In this document: piece after piece, positions 35,704 through 47,583 of the stretch
Layout: every line of letters starts with the position of its first letter
How positions within the stretch are numbered: the stretch's first letter is position 1
Source of the DNA: Promethearchaeota archaeon Loki_b32
Lineage (GTDB): Archaea > Asgardarchaeota > Lokiarchaeia > Sigyniarchaeales > SOKP01
Assembly: GCA_005223125.1 (NCBI GenBank)
Contig: NJBH01000030.1
Span: 1-49,817, forward strand
Direction: 5' to 3'
DNA length: 49,817 bases
The notes under the pieces: model-generated
Databases searched by the model: none
Seen by the model: the letters and a program-made list of their open reading frames with translations, nothing else
What the model was told of the DNA's origin: nothing
Position numbers and translations under genes: made by a program

Positions 35704-35755
35704 ACGACCAATAATTAAAATAGAAATTTATAATAAAAAATGGGAGGGGGGGGAT

Positions 35756-35784
35756 TTGTTCGAGGTCCCCGATACGAGAGCCCG
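35756..35784 (-). other. T-loop intron of tRNA-Pro with BHB motif
   Basis: 29 bases inserted after TTCAA of the T-loop (exact edge can slide by up to three bases because CAA is repeated). Central helix GTTC (exon) with GAAC (intron), 3-base bulges AAC and AAA, inner helix GGG with CUC, and the T-stem as outer helix: a textbook bulge-helix-bulge for the archaeal splicing endonuclease. Confidence 0.8.
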
Positions 35785-35816
35785 TTGAACCCCCGACCCC
35801 TTGGTCCCAAACCAAG

Positions 35817-35844
35817 ATTCACGCCGTAGAGAAAAACTCTACAG
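35817..35844 (-). other. D-arm/anticodon-arm junction intron of tRNA-Pro
   Basis: About 28 bases at tRNA position 26/27, containing a perfect 6-bp hairpin GTAGAG-TTTTT-CTCTAC. The flanking bases form only a relaxed bulge-helix, so exact splice sites are uncertain by one or two bases. Confidence 0.7.
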
Positions 35845-35889
35845 TATCATACCAAGCTAGACCACCCTCCCTTTACTAAACAGGTTTCT

Positions 35890-46170: not shown

Positions 46171-46395
46171 ATAGGACATTAATATCCATTTTAAATATCT
46201 TTTGTTTTTTTGCAAGATTCCATAATAAAAATCTTAATTTCGAAAACCGATATGTATGTCTTTTAAATCATTGAGGTTTTCAATAAACAAATTTTATATT
46301 TTGTATAATGTTTTTTTCAATATCAATAAAAATTAAATTAATTAAAGTGATATAAAATTTCCTTCGATGAATTAAGTAAAAAATTAGCAGAGTTT

Positions 46396-47190
46396 ATGAA
46401 AAATATAGAAGAAATTGAGCTCCAAGATGTAGATTTATTCGCAGAATATCTGGAATTTCAAATGTTACCAAGCATAGTTCAAGCTGCCGCTCAAGCAGTA
46501 TTACCAGGAGTTCCTGGAAAAGCTGAGTGGACACCTGCCAAATTCTCACTTGATTTGGATTATCCCGGGAAAATCGAGACAATTGAATTTATTCGCTCAA
46601 ATGGTAAAAAAGCTACTATCGGTGGAGAAGTTGTCCCTCCCTTCTATAACTTTTTGGGACTTGAGAAAAGAAATCCTAATCCTCCGCTCGTTACGTATGA
46701 CGTATTTGATATGGGCGCAAAAATGATGCTTCCAAAACCTATTAAACAAGAATATGGCGAAGTATTAGGAGACCCTGCCGAATGGGCGAAGTTTGCTGTT
46801 GATAAGTTTGGAGCAGAATGCATAACATTCCATTCATTAGAGATCGATCCTGCGATGGGTGATGCTCCAGTTTCACAATCCAGAAAATTTTTAGAAGATA
46901 TTCTTCAAGCTGTTGATGTTCCTGTCATAATTGGTTGCTCAGGAAACAAGAAGAAAGATGTTGAGATGTTTACTGAATTAGCAGCTATCTCCGAAAGTGA
47001 AGTTTTGATGTTATCCGCGGCAGATAAGGCTACATGGGAGGAGGTTATCCCTCTAGCAGTCAAACATGATCATAACTGCTTACTTTGGACCAGTTTAGAT
47101 CTGAACAACCAAATTAAGATGAATAAGGATGCTCTTGAATTAGGATTACCCAGAAACCGTATTGTCATGGACCCAACAGTATGTGCATAA
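46396..47190 (+). CDS. cdhD: Acetyl-CoA decarbonylase/synthase delta subunit (CdhD), 5' part up to an in-frame TAA
   Basis: 264 residues matching the corrinoid/iron-sulfur small subunit CdhD: KATIGGEVVPPFY, YDVFDMG, DPAEWAKFAVDKF, FLEDILQAVDVPVIIG and finally VMDPTVCA, where the family has a conserved DPTTCALGYG-type motif. The frame then meets TAA (47188-47190); downstream the same frame continues with the rest of the protein. CdhD passes the methyl group to the acetyl-CoA synthase. Upstream of 46396 the frame also reads like family sequence (KISFDELSKKLAEF) without an ATG, GTG or TTG, so the true start is unclear. Confidence 0.85.
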   Translation: MKNIEEIELQDVDLFAEYLEFQMLPSIVQAAAQAVLPGVPGKAEWTPAKFSLDLDYPGKIETIEFIRSNGKKATIGGEVVPPFYNFLGLEKRNPNPPLVTYDVFDMGAKMMLPKPIKQEYGEVLGDPAEWAKFAVDKFGAECITFHSLEIDPAMGDAPVSQSRKFLEDILQAVDVPVIIGCSGNKKKDVEMFTELAAISESEVLMLSAADKATWEEVIPLAVKHDHNCLLWTSLDLNNQIKMNKDALELGLPRNRIVMDPTVCA

Positions 47191-47217
47191 TTCATGCAAT
47201 ATATTGGGAAATGCGCG
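47188..47217 (+). other. Candidate BHB intron inside cdhD
   Basis: About 30 extra bases containing the TAA. Proposed fold: central helix GTGC (47183-47186) with GCGC (47213-47216, one G-U pair), 3-base bulges ATA (47187-47189) and GAC (47217-47219), inner helix ATT (47190-47192) with AAT (47210-47212). The outer helix is weak. Removal restores an open frame reading DPTVCATLGYG. A separate palindrome TGCAT-N5-ATGCA (47184-47198) spans the stop and the next ATG. Confidence 0.45.
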
Positions 47218-47583
47218 ACACTCGGTTATGGGATGGAGTACAGTTTCAGTATTTATCAAAGAATGCGCGTTGCTGGATTATTAGGCGAAACTGATTTAGC
47301 TTACCCAATAAGTGGAGGAACAACAAATGCATGGGGAGCACGTGAGGCATGGATGAGTGAAAAAATAGCACCTGAATGGGGATTACGCCAATATCGAGGC
47401 CCCATATGGGAAATCCTCAATGCTTTAGCTTTATGCACAGTAGGCATTGATCTTTGTATGATGTTCCATCCAGTAGCCGCAAAACATGTTAAAGAAATAA
47501 CTTCTCAATTTTTCGCAGAAGTTCCAAAAGTTTTAGACGATAAAGGTTATTATGATTGGGTTTCAGCAAATTTGAAACGTTAG
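47194..47583 (+). CDS. cdhD: Acetyl-CoA decarbonylase/synthase delta subunit (CdhD), 3' part
   Basis: 129 residues in the same frame as the 5' part. After an unmatched MQYIGKCAT it resumes at LGYGMEYSFSIYQRMRVAGL and continues through ISGGTTNAWGAREAW and the C-terminal MMFHPVAAKHVKEI, all typical of CdhD. If translated separately the product would begin at the ATG four bases after the TAA by re-initiation, giving a two-chain CdhD. The pieces together equal one normal C-terminal-complete CdhD. Confidence 0.8.
   Translation: MQYIGKCATLGYGMEYSFSIYQRMRVAGLLGETDLAYPISGGTTNAWGAREAWMSEKIAPEWGLRQYRGPIWEILNALALCTVGIDLCMMFHPVAAKHVKEITSQFFAEVPKVLDDKGYYDWVSANLKR

Follow-up and report, generated by a model that had tools for sequence, protein, structure and literature searches.

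Candidate bulge-helix-bulge mini-introns in CO dehydrogenase/acetyl-CoA synthase genes of Lokiarchaeia

An interrupted cdhD gene

How could a gene with a stop codon in its most conserved motif still encode a complete enzyme subunit? The question is raised by cdhD, the gene for the CO dehydrogenase/acetyl-CoA synthase (CODH/ACS) delta subunit. In the window (the whole stretch of 49,817 nucleotides analysed here) its frame runs on the forward strand from 46351 to 47583 and is broken by one stop only, a TAA at 47188-47190. The first-pass annotation had described this frame, and the Pfam CdhD profile (PF03599) is matched by both open parts at abutting profile positions, 7-180 and 179-227. The same annotation had placed extra DNA in the conserved DPT...LGYG motif, which was borne out when we aligned about 50 Lokiarchaeal cdhD genes: the source genome (G000) carries 33 additional nucleotides between DPT and CATLGYG that are not present in the intact relatives aligned. 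Removal of the 33 nt gives DPTCATLGYG exactly, the same motif as in those relatives. The search for a second intact cdhD, which the annotation had suggested, found none in the genome.

The 33-nt boundaries differ from the insert of 30 nt with a central helix GTGC:GCGC that had been proposed at first. A 4-bp helix is found at the 30-nt junction too, but the product there, DPTVCASLGYG, has one residue too many in the conserved motif; this extra residue, conceded in the earlier proposal, disappears with the 33-nt junction, in which the central helix is CCCA:TGGG. According to the published rule, cleavage separates the second bulge residue from the third (PMC2738675), from which follows the canonical register used here: exon 1 and the intron each end in four helix bases and two bulge bases. 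Cuts after the second bulge base on both strands would give DPTCATLGYG in the source genome. The unconstrained minimum free energy fold contains this helix flanked by 3-nt bulges, ACA and AAA (z = -2.7). The inner helix forms all five pairs and the outer helix, which the first-pass annotation had called weak, three of five, with mismatches; the motif is a relaxed one. The palindrome noted at the stop and restart codons corresponds to the hairpin of the candidate intron. A search of the window against Rfam returned neither a self-splicing intron nor any other RNA, even at E<=1. A self-splicing intron of group I or group II was rejected because no covariance model matched and 33 nt is too short.

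Coordinates of the cdhD features and of the tRNA-Pro gene in the window
Feature	Position	Strand	Description
cdhD exon 1	46396..47177	+	782 nt, phase 2 end, ...GAC CCA AC; PF03599 match
Candidate 33-nt BHB intron	47178..47210	+	AGTATGTGCATAATTCATGCAATATATTGGGAA; in-frame TAA inside
cdhD exon 2	47211..47583	+	373 nt, TAG stop included
Central helix, 5' strand	47172..47175	+	CCCA, 4 bp; exonic
5' bulge	47176..47178	+	ACA; predicted cut after 47177 (AC, then A)
Central helix, 3' strand	47205..47208	+	TGGG; intronic
3' bulge	47209..47211	+	AAA; predicted cut after 47210 (AA, then A)
Intron hairpin	47184..47198	+	TGCAT-AATTC-ATGCA; conserved in G017
tRNA-Pro(UGG), two BHB introns	35742..35871	-	spliced 73-nt tRNA recognised by ARAGORN
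tRNA-Pro intron, 28 nt	35818-35845	-	between D arm and anticodon stem; 4/4 central helix pairs
tRNA-Pro intron, 29 nt	35756-35784	-	T loop; 4/4 central helix pairs

Inserts of the same size in related genomes

We compared the locus with 58 relatives and then with the full set of 65 genomes from its family, all of these sequences being metagenome-assembled. The cdhD frame is unbroken, with no insert, in about 45 genes; six others contain a single insert each, and three positions are involved: site A, between EEV and IPLAV (29 nt in G003, 30 nt in G022); site B, between DPT and CATLGYG (33 nt in the source genome, 32 nt in G017); and site C, between DPTCAT and LGYG (36 nt in both G008 and G071). 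The family was also searched for CdhC and for Prismane proteins (CdhA, CooS), and the split or shortened frames were fetched and aligned, which yielded 15 more inserts. They occupy three sites in cdhC (one in G022, one in G007 and G022, one in G003, G008 and G073), three in cdhA (one in G012, one in G010, G012, G018 and G022, one in G010 and G018) and one in cooS (G017 and G030). In all, 12 genomes contain at least 21 inserts, each 29-36 nt long, which are distributed over ten sites; the count is a minimum drawn from copies with a split or shortened frame. Several sites lie in codons of conserved cysteine or active-site motifs, between CCL and CTYGKC and between MPI and CDMC in cdhA and between GCV and LCQSF in cdhC, whose conserved cysteines are presumably ligands of metal clusters.

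Retention of the insert would introduce a stop in every one of the 21 cases, on which grounds an intein was rejected, and in 11 of the 21 the length is not a multiple of three. The mean folding z-score over the inserts is -2.0. When the inserts are removed exactly, all six interrupted cdhD genes, at all three sites, again encode the family protein, and so do the other genes; in each of the six, the protein-restoring junction is the one with four central pairs. Of the 21 introns, 16 have all four pairs of the central helix in precisely the register that restores the protein, where shuffling of the introns predicts 1.05. This ratio overstates the significance, as several inserts are homologous between genomes and the 21 are not independent events. 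Taken each alone, four separate cdhD introns gave shuffle frequencies of 0.006, 0.025, 0.078 and 0.011. At site A the central helix is preserved in both introns although its pairs differ, GAAG:CTTC in G003 and GATG:CATT in G022. The full 4-bp helix is missing in 5 of the 21 introns, which, together with the imperfect outer helix in the source genome, means that a relaxed enzyme must be assumed.

We looked for similar interruptions elsewhere. There were no such breaks among about 150 listed thermosome genes, in 58 full-length cdhE genes or in NiFe hydrogenase genes with full-length frames, and no inserts in CdhC genes of other families of the class. A comparison of the source genome (419 kb) with G004 (400 kb) revealed no intron-like split in a few dozen shared genes, a sample too small to bound the genome-wide number, with about 70 queries matched per direction and many antisense shadow ORFs among them.

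Splicing machinery and competing explanations

The genome contains two endonuclease (EndA) genes, L041 on contig C18 and L042 on contig C2. L041 is closest to the catalytic chain of the Aeropyrum pernix endonuclease (PDB 3p1z) and keeps the catalytic His; in L042 the corresponding position is not His. This combination fits an (alpha-beta)2 enzyme. The loop motif K44-P45-R46 of the A. pernix enzyme is found as K60-P61-R62 in L041, and this crenarchaeal K-P-R loop has been linked to a broad substrate range (PMC12397907). Hetero-oligomeric endonucleases have been tied to pre-mRNA introns and their splicing (Yoshinari 2006; Yokobori 2009, PMC2738675). RtcB is also present (L065).

A tRNA gene in the window offers a parallel from the same genome. 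The tRNA-Pro with a 29-nt intron, to which the first-pass annotation had drawn attention, is real, and a second intron of 28 nt was additionally found. We located the gene via its anticodon arm, followed by excision of BHB candidates; ARAGORN and Rfam miss it unless both introns are removed. The gene shows that BHB introns occur at unusual tRNA positions in the source genome, and abundant tRNA introns at odd positions have been described in other Asgard archaea, including Atabeyarchaeia and Freyarchaeia (PMC11291895).

From the sequence comparisons we infer that the inserts are very probably BHB introns that would be spliced from mRNA, an interpretation already raised for cdhD by the first-pass annotation and supported by the 20 further inserts in relatives. 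In this mechanism the cdhD pre-mRNA would fold such that exonic CCCA pairs with intronic TGGG and 3-nt bulges flank the helix. A two-subunit endonuclease, with L041 as the putative catalytic and L042 as the putative structural subunit, would cleave each bulge behind its second base, and the exons would be joined by RtcB. The spliced mRNA, with the predicted junction ...GGACCCAAC joined to ATGCGCGAC... after removal of 33 nt, would be translated into a normal 384-residue CdhD with the predicted junction peptide ...VMDPTCATLGYG..., spanning VMDPTCATLGYGMEYSFSIYQR.

BHB-intron splicing explains these data best, by a wide margin; the comparison with relatives speaks against the other readings offered at the outset, a disabling insertion, a split gene or a consensus error. 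A disabling insertion would make the source cdhD a recent pseudogene, as the in-frame stop might suggest, and with a sole cdhD in the genome there is no functional copy to mask a loss. Purifying selection is nevertheless strong on both exons, with dN/dS far below 1 on either side of the stop (dN 0.053 and dS 1.65 for exon 1, dN 0.068 and dS 1.41 for exon 2, between the source genome and G013), and the source genome has intact cdhA and cdhC genes. In addition, all 20 of the similarly sized inserts in relatives can be excised without remainder, most of them in agreement with the BHB register, and none were seen in thermosome or cdhE genes. We consider a pseudogene very unlikely.

Production of CdhD as two chains, the second starting from the ATG at 47194, draws on the position of this codon four bases past the stop and on the conservation of both ORFs. 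The insert positions vary among relatives, however, with three in cdhD and ten in all, the break falls inside the most conserved motif, and the second chain would start with the intron-derived residues MQYIGK, which together make a split gene highly improbable. Translational bypassing, with ribosomes skipping the insert in the manner of T4 gene 60 or of the byp elements in yeast mitochondria, would account for short, hairpin-bearing inserts and for an exactly restored frame. It requires matching take-off and landing codons, but these match in only 2 of the 21 inserts and not in that of the source genome, nor would it predict the helix register seen in 16 of 21; we regard it as no more probable than the split gene. 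Least probable of all is an assembly or sequencing error: the contigs are indeed metagenome-derived, but homologous introns recur in independent assemblies from different projects (a G017 contig at 233x, bin60, 33X4, ABR03, AMARA_1S), and insert size and structure are consistent.

Distribution, spread and relation to known introns

Some of the candidate introns are missing from closely related sister species. The cdhD genes of G071 and G081 are 99.1% identical in their 5' part, and G081 has no intron. At site C, G008 and G071 have almost the same intron sequence, and about 40 nt before and about 30 nt after it are nearly identical as well, whereas the two cdhD genes are 76.6% identical overall and fall into separate well-supported clades, representing two genera. 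An intron and a short exon tract common to two genera with otherwise differing genes imply horizontal spread. At site B, the downstream exon of G017 resembles that of the source genome (91.7%) and not that of its sister G005, and the upstream exon resembles G005 (95%). The simplest reading of these patterns is that recombination transfers introns and co-converts a short tract of exon along with them, and some introns of the family would then have moved between lineages together with such a tract. On the broader proposal, that Lokiarchaeia harbour a family of non-coding, horizontally mobile mini-introns of 29-36 nt in CODH/ACS mRNAs, placed in codons of the best-conserved active-site and metal-ligand motifs, removed by a crenarchaeal-like splicing endonuclease and spread through recombination with short exon tracts co-converted and not by a homing enzyme encoded in the intron, we are evenly divided.

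Archaeal mRNA introns have so far been known mainly from cbf5 of Crenarchaeota, where a few other protein-coding BHB introns have been reported. The cbf5 pre-mRNA intron occurs in Desulfurococcales and Sulfolobales (Watanabe 2002; Yokobori 2009, PMC2738675) and is 16-44 nt long (Yokobori 2009, PMC2738675). It is confined to one site in one crenarchaeal gene and shows vertical descent with losses, in contrast to the ten sites, four genes and signs of horizontal transfer in Lokiarchaeia. The byps of yeast mitochondria are short hairpin inserts scattered in coding genes; the cdh inserts are likewise short and form hairpins, but lack matching take-off and landing codons and have a BHB register. 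Archaeal rRNA BHB introns are much longer and often carry homing endonuclease genes, unlike the cdh introns, which have no coding capacity. Archaeal tRNA introns at non-canonical positions have the BHB motif in common with the cdh inserts, although their host RNA is tRNA and not mRNA. These tRNA introns resemble the cdh inserts also in length and enzyme class, and rRNA introns do so in their conserved sites and horizontal spread (PMC2738675).

No Asgard mRNA introns were found in the open-access journal papers searched. This kind of mRNA intron is known from cbf5; as far as checked, the Asgard host, the metabolic genes, the many sites and the horizontal spread are new. If the splicing model is true, protein-coding genes of the archaea closest to eukaryotes would be spliced by tRNA-type machinery, intron gain and horizontal spread would be directly observable as presence or absence between sister species, and gene callers would misread the CODH/ACS genes of these genomes as broken or missing.

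Some interrupted or incomplete genes have other causes. Contig ends account for the apparent break of cdhE in G018 and for the short frame of CdhC in G041, and CdhC of G038 (L198, G038:C22) was rejected as an intron case, as about 85 internal residues are missing relative to its Lokiarchaeal relatives. In G006, an isolated C-terminal cooS fragment of 70 residues (L130 2738-2950, G006:C46) starts near the intron site of other genomes; it has no upstream half nearby and was treated as a remnant. A strong CdhC match is missing in G005, G027, G068, G074 and others, though cdhD and cdhE are present, possibly through loss of the acetyl-CoA synthase subunit or through assembly gaps.

Two sequence features recur in the family. 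AATTC or ATTC is found in the hairpin or loop of otherwise different introns, at cdhD sites B and C, at cdhA site 253 (G018) and in cooS (G030), and could reflect chance, shared ancestry or a recognition feature. The last 26-34 residues of CdhD are present as detached copies away from cdhD, in G015 about 400 nt downstream of it (L008 3066-3143; G027:C45:21928-22029; G002:C5:3836-3925).
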